A stretch of 64,000 nt of DNA from Antedon bifida (Eukaryota > Echinodermata > Crinoidea > Comatulida > Antedonidae): assembly GCA_963402885.1 (NCBI GenBank), contig OY727095.1:25487001-25551000 (forward strand), in the 5' to 3' direction. Under the pieces are notes generated by a model. It did not search any database. It saw nothing but the letters and a program-made list of their open reading frames with translations, and was not told the origin of the DNA. A program made the translations under genes and the position numbers. Shown here in pieces: positions 5,868 through 27,200 of the stretch. How positions within the stretch are numbered: the first letter of the stretch is position 1; each line of letters opens with the position of its first letter.

Positions 5868-6962
5868 GGGTCAAGTCGGCCCCAAACCGTCTCGGCCAAA
5901 GTCAAGTCGGCCCCACGTCAAGTCGGCCCCAAGTCAACTCGGCCTCACGTCAACTCAGCCAAAAACTAATCGGTCAACTCGGCCACAATAAAGTATGGAA
6001 CGCAAAAAGTGCTTAATATTCTTATGATTAAATTACTATCCACGCTTTAAAAAAAATGAAGAAATAAGAAAAATACTCATATAAAAAATGATCTCATTGC
6101 CGATATGAATAGAAGTACCCGCGTGTTACAAAAACATGTGCAAGTACCACATTTTAGTAAATCGAAGACGTAGGTCTACGTTCCACCATTTGGCCATAGA
6201 AAAAATGATCGTACATATCGTTTTTGTCCATGATTTGCGTTTAAAAAAAAGGGGTCAGCGAAAACACGTAGCAGTTGTAGATATCGAAATAGCTGCCAAA
6301 GGCGCAGGGAGGCGCAGCTACGAATTGGTTTCAGATATTGTCGCTTAATCAAACGCATACACTGAAGAAATCTACGCGTGATTCAACCATGGAGTCAACA
6401 TTATTTCAAATCAAATGATTCAACCAAATAATCTTATTACACCTAATGAATGTCCTCGCATATCGGACAGGTTTATTGAAGTTTGACGCACGAACGAACA
6501 CACGCGCTTATGTACGTGCATCATCATTATTAGGCCTACAATTTGTTCCTATTTATTATCCAAATGTTCATTGTAATCATTAATAATACTTTAATAGTAT
6601 GAATGCTTATTAATCAATTGTTTGTTATGCGCAATTTGAACAATTTTCGCAATTTGAAATTTTATTAAATGTAAATAAAGGAAAGTTGGTGAAATCATTC
6701 TTATTTTTTTTTGCTAAACGTATTGTCTAAATATTAATATTCATTAAAAGTCAGAATTATTCATAGGTAAAAAAATGTGAAGAAATATTATTTTATTAAT
6801 CCCCTTCCTTTACACTTTTTGCGTTCCATACTTTACCGGGGCCGAGTTGACCGATTATTTTTTGGCAGAGTGGACGTGAGGCCGAGTTGACTTGAGGCCG
6901 AGTTAACTTGGGGCCGACTTGACTTTGGCCGAGACGGTTTAGGGCCGACTTGGATCGAAATC
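5868..6962. mobile_element. Long-TIR DNA element, copy B, complete with 8-bp TSD
   Basis: Direct repeats AAACGAAC at 5860-5867 and 6963-6970 bracket a 1,095-bp element whose ends (about 5868-6010 and 6820-6962) are inverted copies built of CAAGTCGGCCCC-type units. The shared terminal block contains AAACCGTCTCGGCCAAAGTC. No coding capacity. An 8-bp duplication would suit hAT, P or Merlin superfamilies; I cannot choose among them. Confidence 0.8.
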
Positions 6963-7861: not shown

Positions 7862-8117
7862 GGGGCGACTTTGCGATGGGGGCGACTTTGCGATGGGGGG
7901 GGGGGGTGCGACTTTGCGATGGGGACGACTTTGCGATGGGGGCGACTTTGCGATGGGGGGGGGGGGCGACTTTGCGATGGGGGGGGGGGGCGACTTTGCG
8001 ATGGGGGGGGGGGGGGGGCGACTTTGCGATGGGGGGGGCGACTTTGCGATGGGGGGGCGACTTTGCGATGGGGGCCGACTTTGCGATGGGGGCGACTTTG
8101 CGATGGGGGCGACTTGA
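7862..8117. repeat. G-run minisatellite, 12 units
   Basis: Twelve copies of GCGACTTTGCGATG separated by G tracts of about 4 to 16 bases, ending in a partial unit GCGACTTGAC. Unit length varies only through the G tract. The long Gly/Pro-rich open frames on both strands result from the repeat. The plus strand has very high G-quadruplex potential. Confidence 0.9.
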
Positions 8118-8488
8118 CTAGCATCCCATAAGCCCTACCTAGGCCTTATACCCTAGCCAGGCCTATAAGAGGCTAGGCTAGCCTAAGCCTAGGCCCTAGC
8201 CTAGGCCTAGCTAGGGGGCCTGGGCCTAGTATTATTAAAAATAAAACTTACCAAAAATCCATGAAAACTTTAAATTAGGGTGGGCCTGGGCCTAGCCTAT
8301 TTGAATTACTGTAACTTTGAACGTAAAATCGGAAATTGAATCCTGAATGGGGTTAATTTCAATGAAATTCTACGTGGTTGATAGGCCTACGCCGCCTCTC
8401 TCTCTCCTAGTATAAAGGATGTGCCAGGCATAAACAAATACCCACGGTTTTATCACTGAAAAGTGGCTTAGGCTAGTTTTTAGTCGCG
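8118..8488. other. AGGCCTA-rich non-coding stretch
   Basis: Positions 8120-8240 are almost wholly overlapping AGGCCTAG/CTAGGCCT words. The rest shows no gene. Confidence 0.5.
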
Positions 8489-8513
8489 TTTTTGCACGCG
8501 ACTCTAGAGTCTA
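8489..8513. repeat. Fragment of the AGTCGCGT hairpin repeat family
   Basis: Begins around TAGTCGCG and continues to ACGCGACTCTA. It matches the hairpin that starts larger copies near 24850, 39034 and 42208, and abuts the long-TIR element at 8517. Confidence 0.5.
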
Positions 8514-8516
8514 CGG

Positions 8517-9440
8517 GATTTCGATCGTCGGCCCTAAACCGTCTCGGCCAAAGTCAAGTCGGCCCCAAGTCAAGTCGGCCCCAAGTCAAGTCGGCCCCAA
8601 GTCAAGTCGGCCCCAAGTCAAGTCGGCCCCAAGTCAAGTCGGCCCCAAGTCAAGTCGGCCCCAAGTCAAGTCGGCCCCAAGTCAAGTCGGCCCCAAGTCA
8701 AGTCGGCCCCAAGTCAACTCGGCCCCAAGTCAACTCGGCCTCAAGTCAACTCGGCCTCAAGTCAACTCGGCCTCACGTCAACTCGGCCAAAAAATAATCG
8801 GTCAACTCGGCCCCGTTAAAGTATGGAATGGAAAAGGTGCAAAGGAAGGGGATTGATAAAATAATATTTCTTCATATTTTTTTACCTGAATTATTCTGAC
8901 TTTTAATGAATATTAATATTTAGACAATAATACATTCAGCAAAAAAAATAAGAAGGATTTCACCAACTTTCCTTTATTTACGTTTAATAAAATTGCACAA
9001 ATTGTTCAAATTGCGCAAACAATTGATTAATAAGCTAGCATTCATACTATTATTAATGATTACAATATGAACATTTGGATAAAATAGGAACACATTGTAG
9101 GCCCAATAATGATGATGCACGTACGTGGGCGCGTATGTTCGTTCGTGTGTCAAAATTCAATAAAAATGTCCGATATGCGACGACATTTATTAGGTGCGTA
9201 ATAAGATTGTTTGGTTGAATCATTGAGGTATTAAATAATGCTAACTCCATGGTTGAATCACGCGTAGATTTCTTCAGTGTATGTATGTTATTAGGCGACA
9301 ACATCTTAAACCAATTCGTAGCTGCGCCTCCCTGCACCTTTAGCAGCTATTTCGATATCTACAACTGCTACGTGTTTTCGCTGACCGGGGGATTCCCCTT
9401 TTTTAAAAACGCAAATCATGGACAAAAACGTCTATTAGAC
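8517..9440 (-). mobile_element. Long-TIR DNA element, copy C (truncated)
   Basis: Reverse-oriented relative of 6225-6962, starting with terminal GATTTCGATC and ending abruptly inside the element (after TGGACAAAAACG). Its terminal repeat is expanded: about fifteen 16-bp units of CAAGTCGGCCCCAAGT type at 8543-8800. The second terminus is missing and no target duplication is visible. Confidence 0.75.
8543..8800. repeat. 16-bp minisatellite in the TIR of copy C
   Basis: About ten perfect units of AAGTCAAGTCGGCCCC followed by about five variants with AACTCGGCC. The same units occur in the other copies in lower number. Confidence 0.85.
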
Positions 9441-9455
9441 TAGGCTATGAATGAG

Positions 9456-12400
9456 GTAGGTGCCACCCGGAGAGGTAGAAATTCTCATATGACTTTTCTA
9501 GACCAGTTTTTTCTGGGGAATCCAAATATATTGGGTAACCTGATAACTTTCTCGTGAGGGCGCTTTTTTCAAAATGGCCGCCAGTTACAGTAGACTATGA
9601 TATCTTGGCAACCACTGGTCATAGAGAGTTAATTATGGTGTCAAATTGTTCGGAATGTACATGTTCCTATTTGATGTAATAGCACATTTTGTCCGAAAAT
9701 GGCCGGAAATACCTCTATTGACCTTTGATATCATATCTCCGTAACTACTCGACACAGAAAGTTGTAATATCCAGAATATAGATGTTTATATTCAAACTAA
9801 TAGAACATTATCTGTAAAAATGACCGGAAATAACGTTACTGCCCTTTGACCCAAAATGCAAGACATTTCTTCTATCATCTGATCACATTTAGTAATATCT
9901 TGTCAATTAATTCATTTTGTGGTAGGTGCCATTCTCATATTGTTTTTTTAGACCAGTTTTTTATATGGAATCTGAATTTGAGGTAAATAGATCGTACCCC
10001 GAGAATATTTGTGTGAGAGCACTTTTTCCAAAATGGCTGTCAAAATTAAATTCAAAGCATATATAGGTATTAATATTATGCATGGAGAACATTGAGTCTC
10101 TGTATCCTGGAAATCGCAAGCTCATTGAAGATAAGGGATTGTCAGTGCAAGGCCAGAGTAATTATGCATTGCGAACTGCAGTAGACCAACGTGGAGAACA
10201 GACGATTAACAGAGATTCTAAATTTGCAGGTGGTATAAAATCTTTCTCTTCAGACGACAAGTCAATTCTGAAATGGTCACTTAACCGTGCACATCAAGCA
10301 GAAAATACTGCTTATTTACGTACCTACTCCAATAGTGAGCCTGATGGACATGTATAAAAGCAAGTACGACCTTCACGTATCATCTCATCTGAAGACAAGG
10401 TGCAGAAATTGATTCATGTTTTGACAACAGAATATGTCAACCCATTTGACCCCATTTTAAATAGAGATGAATTGTACAATCTTAGTTCTGGAGCGCCAGT
10501 GAACAAAAATATTGCGGACGTAATATTTAAAGTCCTGTCAAATGGCAAGTCAGTCCATGAAAGCTTTGTAAAGGAAAGGCTTGAGTCAACTAAAGTGAAA
10601 TTCCATGACAAGCGCAACAAGCTCACTTTATTTTCGAATAGTGGGAAGAAACTCGAAATCAAGGCAAATGGGAAAGTAAAAGTAATAGAAGCTAATCGGG
10701 ATGTTTTAGGAAAGCTTCTTGCCACCTTAACAAAGCATGGTAGAATAATTGACTTTAAGAAAGCCTTTGAGTATCCACTTACCCCTGTCCCGCTAAGCCT
10801 GGCTAATACAGATGGGACAAGACAAACAACTCAGAAAAGTGTCCTAATGGAAATTTTCATCGAAAAAAGTTCAACAGATGTTATGGATCCTGGTCGAGCA
10901 CTGCCAGCAAAGGCTACTATCATTGCCTATGTTGTTGACTTGATGGCATTAATCAGAACATTTACATTTTATCCTGATACGCACGAGGATCTTGCAGCAA
11001 AGGTTTTCAACAGCATCCCTAAAGGATACAAGCGTGTTGATATTGTTGCCGATGCATACTTGCCAAAAAGCATTAAGTCTGTTGAGAGAAACAGACGCGG
11101 TATTGCACCAAAAGTAATTGTAAGCTCAACAATATCAAAGTTGCCCCATGATTTCAACAATTTCCTTGCCAACGGCGAGAACAAGACCAGATTGATTGAG
11201 CTTATTCGCTGTGTACTAGTGTCAAAGAAAGAAAGCATTCTAACAGATATGAGGAGTGATGTTATTTACTTTTCATCGTACAAAGAATGCATCTACATTA
11301 CTAACAGAGATGTTGTATTGGTTCCGGAGCTTAATAGTAGCCAAGAAGAAGCCGACACGAAAGTCATCCTGCATGCAAAGCATGCTTTAACAAATAACAA
11401 TCAAGGCGTAGCAATAATTCGTTCCCATTCTGGAGACATTGATATTCCAGTCATTGCACTATCTCATTTCATAGATAATGGGCAGAGGGTAATTATTGAT
11501 ACAAACACTGGGAAATACCGAAAGATACTGAAATTGAGCGACATTGATTTAACAAAAGCGCAGAAATCATCCCTTATTGGATTCCATGCTTTCACAGGTA
11601 ACGATTATAACTCCGCTTTCTTTCGGAAAGGAAAACGTACCTGCTGGAAGCTTCTGGAATCAAAAGAAAAATTTGTTGACACATTCTGCAACCTTGGAGT
11701 GTCAGATGTGTCATCAAAAGAGTTGTATGAGGAACTTGAAGAGTATGTTTCACTATTGTATGGAGTGAAGGGGAAAAGTGTAAATCAAGCAAGATATGAT
11801 ATCTTCAACAGAAAGTTTTCCAGACACAACAAGATTACAGATATATCATTACTGCCACCATGTCAGCAGACCCTTGAGTTTCATATACTTAGAGCAAACT
11901 TCATTGCTAAAGAATGGCAATCAGCAGACGTCAATGATTTTATCAACAACAGTACACACAATGGATGGAATGAACAAATGGAGCCTAAATGGATTGAGAC
12001 AGTGATGCCTGCGGATGTCCATGAACTGTTTACACATAATGAATATGAAGACTTTTCAGATTGCAGTGATGTGAGCGATCTTGAAGATTATTACACGACA
12101 TACAGACTGAAACACTAAAGGGAAGCATGTATGTAGTAAAAGAATTAAATTCTTGGCCTTGTTATGGCTTATTTATCTCATATATTCGGATTGCACATGA
12201 AAAACCTGTCCAGAAAATAATATGAGAATGTCAACCTCCAATTGGCACAAAATGAATTAATTGATATTATTAAACATGATCAGATGATATAAGAAATGTC
12301 TTGCATTTTGGGTCAAAGGTCAGTAACGTTATTTCCGGTCATTTTTACAGATAATGTTCTATTAGTTTGAATATAGACATCTATATTCTGGACAGTTTGA

Positions 12401-12545
12401 CACCAATTACAACTTTCTGTGTCGAGTAGTAACGGAGATATGATATCTGTTAGATATTGGGTCAAAGGTCAATAGAGGTATTTCCGGCCTATTGGGGCGG
12501 GTAAATTGTGTTACTTTCAAAATGGCCGCCATGACGCTACTCAAA
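9456..12545 (+). mobile_element. Element with inverted arms around a FEN-like nuclease gene
   Basis: About 9690-9945 and 12235-12495 are inverted copies sharing GACCGGAAATAACGTTACTG, TTTGACCCAAAATGCAAGAC, CTACTCGACACAGAAAG and CTATTGACCTTTGA. They flank one gene (10082-12118). In the left arm, blocks near 9456-9600 and 9920-10045 are direct repeats of each other (GGTAGGTGCC, TAGACCAGTTTTTT). TTTCAAAATGGCCGCC occurs near both outer edges in the same orientation. The exact termini and the target duplication were not found, so the outer limits are approximate. Confidence 0.6.
10082..12118 (+). pseudogene. PIN/FEN-like nuclease gene of the element, one in-frame stop
   Basis: Reading frame of about 678 codons from ATG 10082 to TAA 12116-12118, broken once by TAA at 10355-10357. 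The two parts (91 and 572 codons) are in the same frame. Counting from Met 10400, FEN-family acidic positions appear in order: D180 (VVDLMALIR), D218 (VADAYLPKS...R..R), E317/D319 (SQEEADT), D346/D348 (HSGDIDI) and D402 in TGNDYNSAFFRKGK, the helix-turn-helix signature. This matches the seven metal ligands of 5' nucleases by spacing and motif. The N-terminal half (NPFDPIL, NLSSGAPV, KWSLNRA) is a conserved region of uncharacterised invertebrate proteins. Function is inferred. It is intronless. Confidence 0.6.
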
Positions 12546-12703: not shown

Positions 12704-12706
12704 TAA

Positions 12707-14469
12707 AGGCTGGTTTCCTGTCGACGTAAGAAGCAGTTTTTCTAACGTCAGTTACGATTGTTACGTCAATTTTACGTAAGAAACCAACATTTGACAGGAA
12801 ACCGCTTACGACAATATTTTGGTGAAATCGACGTAAACGCAAGAAAAATAGACGATCGACAGGAAACCGGGGTATCGAATCTCCGTCTGATACGTCGATT
12901 TATTGCGAATTTACAGGAAACCGGGATTTTATTGCTTGCGATCACTTGCGTTGCGTTATTAACGATTCTTACGTAAAGTTGACTTGGAGTCAACTTTACG
13001 TAAGCGTAAGAGTCGTAAGCGCAAGATATACAATGGAAAAGGATAGGTCTATTTTTAATAGATACGAAAATACGAATTTCATTAATAAAAGCAGCTTTTT
13101 TACACCACCTCTTTACCAAAAAAGGATAAAAATTACCCCTATATTAAAAACGTACAATAATAAAGTTCTTTCTATCCACACTTTTCTTTATTTTATTGAC
13201 ATATCCTCCTTCCGGTAATTAAGTTCATTAACTATTCTTTTATTAGGAGAAATGATTCGATGTTTTTAAAAAATTTAAACCGACACTATTTGCTCCATCT
13301 GAGTTTTTCTAATCAATGTTTTTGTTGTTTGTGTTGTTATAAAAAGCATGCTATTAGACTCTGATGCAGTAGATGTAATATTAAATACAGAAGGTAAGAT
13401 ATTTAATAACAATTATTAATAATAATAAAGTTATTAAATAATATTGCCATTCAATATCCCTCCACACTTAATAATAAGAAGCATACAGTAACTACTTGTT
13501 AAATAAATTTATTTACAAATACATTCTGCACAATACTATTTTATGGATTAGGCCATTTATATAAATTCTCAAAAATAATAGATGCATACACCATGGCATA
13601 CAGAATATATAATACCGAAAATCAAACCTTTGACTAAATACTAATTACTTACTTATTAACTAAATACTATTTTAAAAAGCAAACACAAACAATTTTACTG
13701 ATTACCCTAAGTGATATAGGCCCTACAGTAACTTTCTTTGCATACACTGTGTCACACAATATATATGATACAGGAAATTAAACCTTTAAATAAATCTAAA
13801 AAGTTGAATACTAAAACTATAAACATATTTTTAAACTCTGAAACTGTGGTACACTGTACTGTAATTTCTCTCTTTCAGATGGGGCTGAATTAAGGACACA
13901 AGTTGATTCAATCTTTCTGGTGTCATTCTTGTATATCTATTTAATAAAGCAAAACAATTACCGGAAGGAGGATATGTCAATAAAATAAAAAAAAGTGTGG
14001 ATAGAAAGAACTTTATTATTGTACGTTTTTAATATAGGGGTAATTTTTATCCTTTTTTGGTAAAGAGGTGGTGTAAAAAAGCTGCTTTTATTAATGAAAT
14101 TCGTATTTTCGTATCTATTAAAAATAGACCTATCCTTTTCCATTGTATATCTTGCGCTTACGACTCTTACGCTTACGTAAAGTTGACTCCAAGTCAACTT
14201 TACGTAAGAATCGTTAATAACGCAACGCAAGTGATCGCAAGCAATAAAATCCCGGTTTCCTGTAAATTCGCGATAAATCGACGTATCAGACGGAGATTCG
14301 ATACCCCGGTTTCCTGTCGATCGTCTATTTTTCTTGCGTTTACGTCGATTTCACCAAAATATTGTCGTAAGCGGTTTCCTGTCAAATGTTGGTTTCTTAC
14401 GTAAAATTGACGTAACAATCGTAACTGACGTTAGAAAAACTGACTCTTACGTCGACAGGAAACCAGCCT
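12707..14469. mobile_element. Harbinger-like giant palindrome with 3-bp TSD
   Basis: TAA at 12704-12706 and 14470-14472 brackets an element with termini AGGCTGGTTTCCTGTCGACG. Two 514-bp arms (12707-13220 and 13956-14469) are near-identical inverted copies around a 735-bp loop. The arms hold repeated ACAGGAAACC words in both orientations, likely transposase-binding sites, and a perfect small palindrome of TTACGTAAAGTTGACT (about 12972-13004). The loop carries, on the minus strand (about 13876-13940), a short TRMTPERLNQLVSLIQPHL segment resembling the N-terminus of Harbinger transposases. A 3-bp TAA duplication fits PIF/Harbinger. The twin open frames in the arms are not genes. Confidence 0.75.
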
Positions 14470-14578
14470 TAATGTTTGTTACGATTGTTGCGTTTGTTAC
14501 GTCTCTTCCGTTAAGTTGAACAAAAATGAACGTCGTTTTGATCGTTCTGAACCGCAGGCTCACGAGCCGATAACGACC

Positions 14579-24200: not shown

Positions 24201-27200
24201 CTGAAATTAAAGGGCAATTATAAAATCAAATTAATTTTTCATTTAAATAGTACCATAATATTTCAAAAGTTTCACACTACTGTAGATTTGAATCAAGAAA
24301 ACGGAACATTCATTAGTAAACATTTTAACTTGAATTTTAAGCGTTAAAGTTAGTATTTTCTTTGACTTTGTAGGCCTACATTTATTCAACTTTTTAAAAA
24401 CTAATAGCAATAACTTTCCCATTTTGTGGGAAGTGTACTTTGAATACCCCTGTCGCTATATAACAAGGCAGAGCTATTATTAGCTAAAAATGAAATTTGA
24501 AAAAAATAATTTATTTTCTTGTTTTCTTTTACTTTTTTTTAAAAGCCGTTTTTGAAATTCTTAAATCGGGATGGTTTTGACATCGTAAATTTCCTGGCAG
24601 GTATGATTACACCATGCAGGATCGAAAATGTGTTTGTATGTAATGGAATTGTCTTTCCAACAAATGTTCGGCTCGATTAGATAAATACATTCATTGACCG
24701 GCGGTAGAAGCACATGGTTAAAGGGTCTTACACAACTGTTCCGGTACGGTTCCGGAAAATCCAATCGAACGTCAATGTTTCGTTTTTGCCGCATAGCCAC
24801 ATCATGAAAACAAAACATTTGCATCCATGTTTTTCTATCCTATAGTTTTTAGTCGCGTGGACGCGACTCTATAGTTCACTATGTCGGTCGGTCTGTCGGT
24901 CCGGTATCACTATGCGTTTTATCGCTTTCTGACCTTATCTTGATATCAGTTTAATCTAGCTAAGTCAATTTTTCACAGTATATTCCTTATGGCCAGGAAT
25001 CGATGTGGTTATGTTTTCACAGTGCGCAATAAAAAATTACGCGGTCTACGCACGATTTAACGAAATCACGTTTGTAATCATATTTTCACAACCATGAATC
25101 ACAATTAAATAAAATTTGGTACTCATAAATTTCAGGGCATAAATCATCATATGGCAATACAATTACGTGCGTAGCGCATGTAACGCATGCGTACGCGCGC
25201 TTAAAATTTTCAAAAATTTATTTTCGATGAAATAAGAGTACGTTTCAGGCAATTTTAAGCGTTTACAAAATTGCCATGAGTGCACAGATTTTTGCGCGCG
25301 CACTGCGCGTTAAATGTTATTCCGCACTCTTTTTGCCCGATTTCTGTTTTCTTGACTTACTTTTCAACTCGAAATTACGTTATACGAGCACGTCAAAAGT
25401 AAATAAATCAATAACGCATTTTGTCATGTCTGTGACACAAAAATATGATATTATTATTTGGACTGCTTGTTTTTTCTGGTTACATTAGAACCATTATCTA
25501 ATTGTCTTTTGAAAATGTTGACTATTATATAATATTTTAGAAATAATAACACTGTTTCTGTTATTTTGTAATGGACGTGACATTTTATATTACAATATTT
25601 TAATAATTAATTTTTTTGCCAAAAATACATTTTTTTTATTAAATTGTAAAGCATTTGATAGAATTCGAATGGAAGAATAAACTGTTTTGCAAAATGACCT
25701 TATACTCTGCAACAATTATGATACATATATTCTCTATACATCAGCAAATGCTGATAATTGTACATTTAGGTGGAGATTCTCTTGCAATTAAGGAGTGTCT
25801 CTCCATTTTTTATTTTTGTAAACATTATTCAAGAGTGTCCAAATTCATTAAATTAAATTATATTCAATCTAATGGATTATAATGTTTGAAAAATAACTTG
25901 TGTGATTATTGACCTTTGAATACTTTGCATGAAGCCTATTGATGGATTGGGGATGGGTATTGATTGTAACACTTTGGTACTGTATGAAGAGCCCACATCG
26001 TAAATATGTACAGGAAAGTGTGCCTTCTCCTTATGAACCTATAAAGTTTTTCCGAATAATGCCATATGGGATCCTTATGTCTGTTCTCTGTGGGCAATAC
26101 CAGCTCTGTATATGGAAATGGGTCAAACATTTGGTCCCATATAGTCTGGCCCATACAGGAAAAAGCCTGGATTTGCCCGAATGATCTTTTTTGGATCTCT
26201 ATATGGTACACTACATACGGCCCTTATTAGAAATGATTATGGTGTATAGATTGAAACTATTGCCTATCAAATTTTTCTGAAAGACATTTTACTGTATAGT
26301 ATAGCATTAGCCGTCATCGACAAATTATTCCAAACCACACGACACATTCAGTAAAATAGAAAGTCTCATTGACCATCTTCCTAATTAACGAACCTCGTGA
26401 ATATTAATAACATACACGCCCACACAACGCGGAACGGCCTAGTACCGGTACTGGACAGAAGTGCATCGTTTAGATGAATGCACATCGATTCAGAATAATT
26501 CTATTTTTGGAATATACATACCATATTTTTTTTGTTCAGTTATTTAGTCTACATAAGCACTATTTGCAGAGGGTAAAATGTTGTACTTCCGGTCATTTTT
26601 TCGTAAAATGTTTCATTAGAGCAAATATAAATATACATTCTGAATAAATCAGTGAAAAAATTAACTCTCTATGACTAGTAGTTTTTGAGATATGGTAACC
26701 CTGTAATTTCACCCTAATTTGTATATTTAAGCTAATTTGAACATCATCGTGAAGAGTGACATCATGGAAAAACGAAGATGTTAAAACAAAAGAACAAAAT
26801 GGATTAAAACAGACATAGATAGGCCTATATTGTACACAAAAAGCATAACAATTAGTACTAAAAATTGATGATAATAATGATAATTTATAATATTAAAATA
26901 ACAAATAAAACACTGTAATTTACAATATAATGATTAATCATGGGATGCGCGGACCGATTTTATCCCGGACGGACCAGTTTTGGTGGCCAAAATTGGTCTG
27001 GCCTGACAGGTTTTGGCAGCGATAAATGGTCCCCCGGACCGATTTTGGTGTGACAGGTATCAAGATTGAGAACAAGTCAAGCACGTAGATATGTGGTTTT
27101 TTTTGTCTTCCCTCTTCACATAGTAAATTTTGGGTATTCCCCTACTCCATATTATATATACGACAGCACATATTTTCTAATTTTGCACTATTTCGTGATA

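Follow-up and report, generated by a model that had tools for sequence, protein, structure and literature searches.

Element with inverted arms at 9436-12490 of the window

The window is a stretch of 64,000 nucleotides from the crinoid Antedon bifida (OY727095.1, positions 25,487,001 to 25,551,000), part of the contig here called C8 in the 315.6-Mb assembly of 27 contigs that was searched as the source genome. Near its left end a pair of inverted arms encloses a reading frame of 572 codons (10400-12118), which the first-pass annotation took to be the only gene, a FEN/PIN-like nuclease, of a mobile element at 9690..12495. The arms do flank this frame, but it is incomplete: read upstream, it extends as far as 10082, interrupted by a single nonsense codon, and corresponds to the C-terminal ~45% of the 1488-codon frame of a full-length relative elsewhere in the genome (locus L011). 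The span of the element differs as well, since according to the family-wide terminus pattern and the alignment to L011 it starts at 9436, while its right arm is cut at 12490. The left terminal inverted repeat begins TAGACTAGGCTATGAATGAGG, and the flank preceding it ends in ...CTAT. The arms pair at 9770-9899/12263-12392 (130 nt, 95%) and in adjoining pieces; because the right arm is cut off, only the innermost ~260 bp pair, out of an arm length of ~550 bp in L011.

The window copy (L009) tracks L011 over 9436-10083. At the pentamer TGCAT, which both sides of the junction share, ~3.9 kb are skipped and the copy resumes inside the coding frame, continuing to the stop at 12118; the codons for the candidate catalytic residues D440 and D610 (L011 numbering) belong to its deleted part. 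The 572-residue product is 95.6% identical to the last part of the L011 protein. In the shared coding part the 2 copies differ by 9 synonymous and 26 non-synonymous codons (1 of the latter at the terminal stop of L011) and by 1 nonsense codon; the ratio is close to that predicted in the absence of selection by a rough estimate that pools differences on both lineages. The window copy is dead and decayed, and its apparent single gene is a remnant with no sign of protein-level selection. Table 1 gives the parts of the copy.

Table 1. Features of the window copy and a related arm fragment. Ligand and catalytic codon positions were computed arithmetically, that of the candidate E856 codon from the L011 alignment.
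Feature	Position in window	Strand	Basis or remark
Left terminal inverted repeat	9436..9989	+	Family-wide terminus pattern; alignments to L011 and L023 arms
Left internal non-coding piece, collinear with L011	9990..10083	+	Ends at deletion junction TGCAT, 10079-10083
Transposase gene remnant	10082..12118	+	About residues 818-1488 of L011 protein plus short read-on past L011 stop position
Codon of candidate third catalytic residue (E856 of L011), DDE domain	10196..10198	+	L011 alignment
Nonsense codon, absent from L011	10355..10357	+	Comparison with L011
572-codon frame, first codon GTG	10400..12118	+	Open reading frame
FEN/EXO1/XPG-like nuclease core	10895..11734	+	Alignments, fold
Metal-ligand codons	D180 10937, D218 11051, E317 11348, D319 11354, D346 11435, D348 11441, D402 11603		
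Right terminal inverted repeat, inner part only	12217..12490	-	Outer ~270 bp missing
Diverged solo arm fragment, related element	26583..26706	not assigned	Arm match

A full-length relative with a candidate DDE domain

L011 (C10:21696399-21703601) is 7203 bp long, is flanked by the target-site duplication TGT and has inverted arms (1236-1733 and 7921-8438) that are 91% identical. It holds one intronless open frame of 1488 codons with an ATG start; when the genome was searched for this protein, it was the sole match spanning residues 1-1488 among the best 31 of 301 candidates, which were scored. The middle of the protein carries a candidate DDE region (D440, D610, GxFH, E856), and the whole is a candidate fusion of a DDE transposase domain to a C-terminal FEN-type nuclease in one polypeptide. 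The L011 protein has no match in Pfam at the curated cut-off and no helicase among its Pfam matches up to E 10. No match was returned by the search with a profile of the DDE region, nor by single-sequence PDB searches. Weak Pfam matches to Elong-fact-P_C (0.0032 to 0.002 at best), Alpha_kinase, and Pox_EPC_I2-L1 were taken as chance, as were the trypanothione reductase and ribosomal entries in the PDB sequence searches.

A nuclease that is the only gene of the element by design, as first annotated, does not agree with this structure. An element without a DDE transposase, in which the FEN-like enzyme itself drives mobility, would account for the nuclease part being the only long frame in the window copy and for its 3' part being what derivatives with coding sequence mainly keep. 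This explanation was rejected as very improbable, because the one full-length member found has the candidate DDE domain upstream in the same frame, and the window copy, interrupted by a nonsense codon and missing one terminus, differs from L011 in a near-neutral codon pattern.

Family members, target-site duplications, and derivatives

The genome search with the left arm of the window yielded at least 43 matches, a lower bound because the best 40 of 448 candidates were scored. Among these matches, 34 fall into 16 groups of facing arms 0.2-6.7 kb apart, and the rest are 2 long singles and 7 short partial ones; the 16 groups and both long singles (18 loci) were retrieved for study. Each of the 18 has a terminus beginning TAGACTAGGC, or nearly so, at one end or both, and 15 have both; one end is lacking in the window copy (the right one), L013, and L025. 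A perfect 3-bp target-site duplication flanks 14 of the 15 two-ended members (0.35 expected by chance), and no duplication of 4-10 bp was found in any of the 15. The exception is L014, whose flanks match over 2 bp only. L012 lies inside a satellite, and its flanks, joined with one copy of ATA, give 119/120 identities to a neighbouring element-free unit, i.e., an empty site. The 3-bp duplications together with the empty site therefore indicate that the arms delimit a unit that moves and duplicates 3 bp of its target. The annotation of a mobile element family is borne out in this respect.

L014 adjoins pieces (1-1657, 5889-6359) that resemble another nuclease-type paralogue, partly in inverted duplicate: 749-1360 gives a 24.9% tblastn match, and 5889-6359 reads like L062 by eye. 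These pieces are perhaps related to the imperfect duplication of L014.

As for internal structure, plain internal-deletion derivatives are represented by L010, the group L014/L016/L017/L018, and the window copy, whereas L012, L015, L023, and the group L019-L022 with its variant L024 carry an inverted duplication of the 3' part, and L026 consists of arms only. Derivatives that keep coding sequence retain mainly its 3' part. Within derivative groups most breakpoints are common, target duplications differ, and flanks are dissimilar to each other; derivatives have therefore multiplied as non-autonomous units, with a transposase presumably supplied in trans. L019 (C13:11291907-11295677) and L020 (C8:19801600-19805370) are 100% identical over 3771 bp and have the duplications CAT and TTT, respectively. 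The simplest reading of this identity is probably very recent movement, a regional or assembly duplication being unlikely because the flanks differ. An origin of the derivatives' left arms from the right end was considered and dropped, the arms being too alike to tell.

The inverted 3' duplications of L012, L015, L019-L022, L023, and L024 form self-complementary arms of up to 1.27 kb, and such copies could give hairpin transcripts.

The nuclease part and its paralogues

The FEN/PIN-like fold proposed for the window product is confirmed: it has a FEN-family fold, with 10-17% identity to the solved FEN1/EXO1/XPG members listed. The proposed metal ligands D180, D218, E317, D319, D346, D348, and D402 are correctly placed, although the codon from which they are numbered is GTG and not Met. 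All 7 are invariant in 5 aligned proteins that include the window product, the other 4 being 27-96% identical to it. In a 9-row alignment D319, D346, and D348 are found in all rows, E317 and D402 in 8 of 9, and D180 and D218 in 8 of the 8 rows that cover them. Of the 12 columns invariant in an 8-row alignment of the core, 6 hold metal ligands.

In P0001, P0002, P0003, and L057 the nuclease and the transposase part lie in a single open frame, as in L011. Their nuclease parts are 25-30% identical to the window product, and the DDE-nuclease fusion is considered old because it recurs in a single frame at this distance. Fold similarity to host-type FEN1/EXO1 might suggest captured host cargo or a domesticated gene lying by chance between the arms. 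Given, however, the age of the fusion, its presence in one frame in all 5 of these proteins, and differences between the window copy and L011 that look neutral, such an origin is extremely improbable. Mobilization in trans, which the first-pass annotation had considered for a cargo gene, does fit copies of this type, but the nuclease, being the C-terminal region of the transposase protein, is not cargo.

Seven paralogue frames (L047, L048, L055, L057, L058, L060, and L062) end, by eye, in a Cys-rich CXC segment. It resembles those of tesmin/TSO1 and lin-54 (Pfam TCR in 4 of 9 rows; PDB lin-54 at E 0.00062); the window family has no such C-terminal segment. Residues 195-487 of the L048 frame (P0002), in its DDE region, match Pfam DUF6589 at 9.3e-5, below the cut-off, and DUF6589 is matched by 2 of 6 segments, a hint from sequence similarity that this family may be related to transposases of the window type. 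A scan of viral contigs revealed no relatives of P0002, and no clear ends of the elements holding L047, L048, and L055 were found in the DNA around the frames.

Comparison with known transposons

Academ elements have terminal inverted repeats, and the AcademX nuclease, as in Repbase, belongs to the XPG family or is XPG-like. AcademX was reportedly described in Kojima 2020. In hAT transposons (Hermes) target duplications are 8 bp long, in contrast to 3 bp here. The P element differs in the same way with its 7-8 bp, whereas Academ is listed with 3-bp duplications (both in the available part of PMC5199201). According to the accessible text of PMC10045372, duplications are 3 or 4 bp in AcademX and 9 or 10 bp in AcademH, which is tied to nuclease versus helicase. 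The first-pass annotation knew of no standard superfamily that uses such a fold; this view is not supported, a nuclease-encoding lineage, AcademX, being described in that text. The window family shares with AcademX, as far as described there, an element-encoded nuclease and 3-bp duplications. It also has terminal inverted repeats, as Academ elements do, and, in a long protein (L011), candidate DDE residues. The window copy itself differs in having lost most of the transposase part, and the likeness is to a printed description. AcademH, of the same superfamily, is set apart by its helicase and 9-10 bp duplications (PMC10045372, same portion), whereas the window family has a nuclease, 3-bp duplications, and no helicase match.

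With a probability of roughly 0.87, the window copy is a dead, non-autonomous deletion derivative of an AcademX-type cut-and-paste transposon, as placed by duplication length and printed domain content. A separate, undescribed superfamily that only resembles AcademX, with its own DDE domain, FEN-type nuclease, and 3-bp duplications, would be compatible with the missing Pfam match of the L011 protein at the curated cut-off and with a placement made from duplication length and printed domain content. It is nevertheless considered improbable, since the genome also holds paralogues, 20-31% identical to the window family, in which the motifs of both parts (DDE and nuclease) recur, a pattern that an established superfamily would be expected to show.

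Amplification of Academ in bivalves is mentioned in the part of PMC10294476 at hand. KolobokE, KolobokD, and KolobokP are DDE transposons with an additional nuclease too, but of other folds (PD-D/ExK, DEDDh, and His-Me finger in the available part of PMC9587614) than the FEN-type one here. With FEN1, EXO1, and XPG 5' nucleases the window product has in common the fold, the order of metal ligands, and an H3TH-like G-x-D..GKGK segment; here, however, the domain forms the C-terminal region of a transposase protein.

Other features of the window

The diverged arm first noted at 26570-26705 exists, slightly shifted, at about 26583-26706 (73% over 101 bp, E 2e-10). A second inverted pair adjoins the element (12706-13220 / 13956-14470), with 515-bp arms that are 99.2% identical and mirrored short frames, and is perhaps another element. 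The DNA at 8492-8797 is repetitive, one frame reading as repeats of the type SQVGPKSSRPQVKSAP.

Proposed mechanism and significance

The middle part of the full-length protein (D440, D610, GxFH, E856) would most likely act as a P/hAT-like DDE transposase, responsible both for cleavage at the transposon ends and for their joining to the target. For the C-terminal FEN/EXO1/XPG-type nuclease the probable task is to trim or take off a 5' strand or flap, either at these ends or in the gap; it could instead act in post-excision repair or be accessory. The window copy formed by internal deletion at the 5-bp microhomology, presumably through interrupted gap repair, and later gained the stop codon and lost its right terminus.

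The extra enzymes of Academ lineages have been suggested to be linked to their duplication lengths, and no test of this link came up in the available text (PMC10045372). An obligatory role of the FEN-type domain in transposition, in which it cuts the 5' (non-transferred) strand or a flap at the transposon ends and, jointly with the DDE domain, determines the 3-bp stagger, is proposed tentatively, with the odds somewhat against it. If true, it would constitute an excision route with 2 nucleases of 2 folds within a single polypeptide.

For the family, the flap nuclease-only mobile element is replaced by a known kind of transposon, which makes a usable system for the role of a FEN/XPG-type nuclease inside a DDE transposase protein. 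The genome of A. bifida offers a full-length frame that is still open, short derivatives that are complete and have defined ends, one empty site, and, on different contigs, 2 identical derivatives that point to recent movement.
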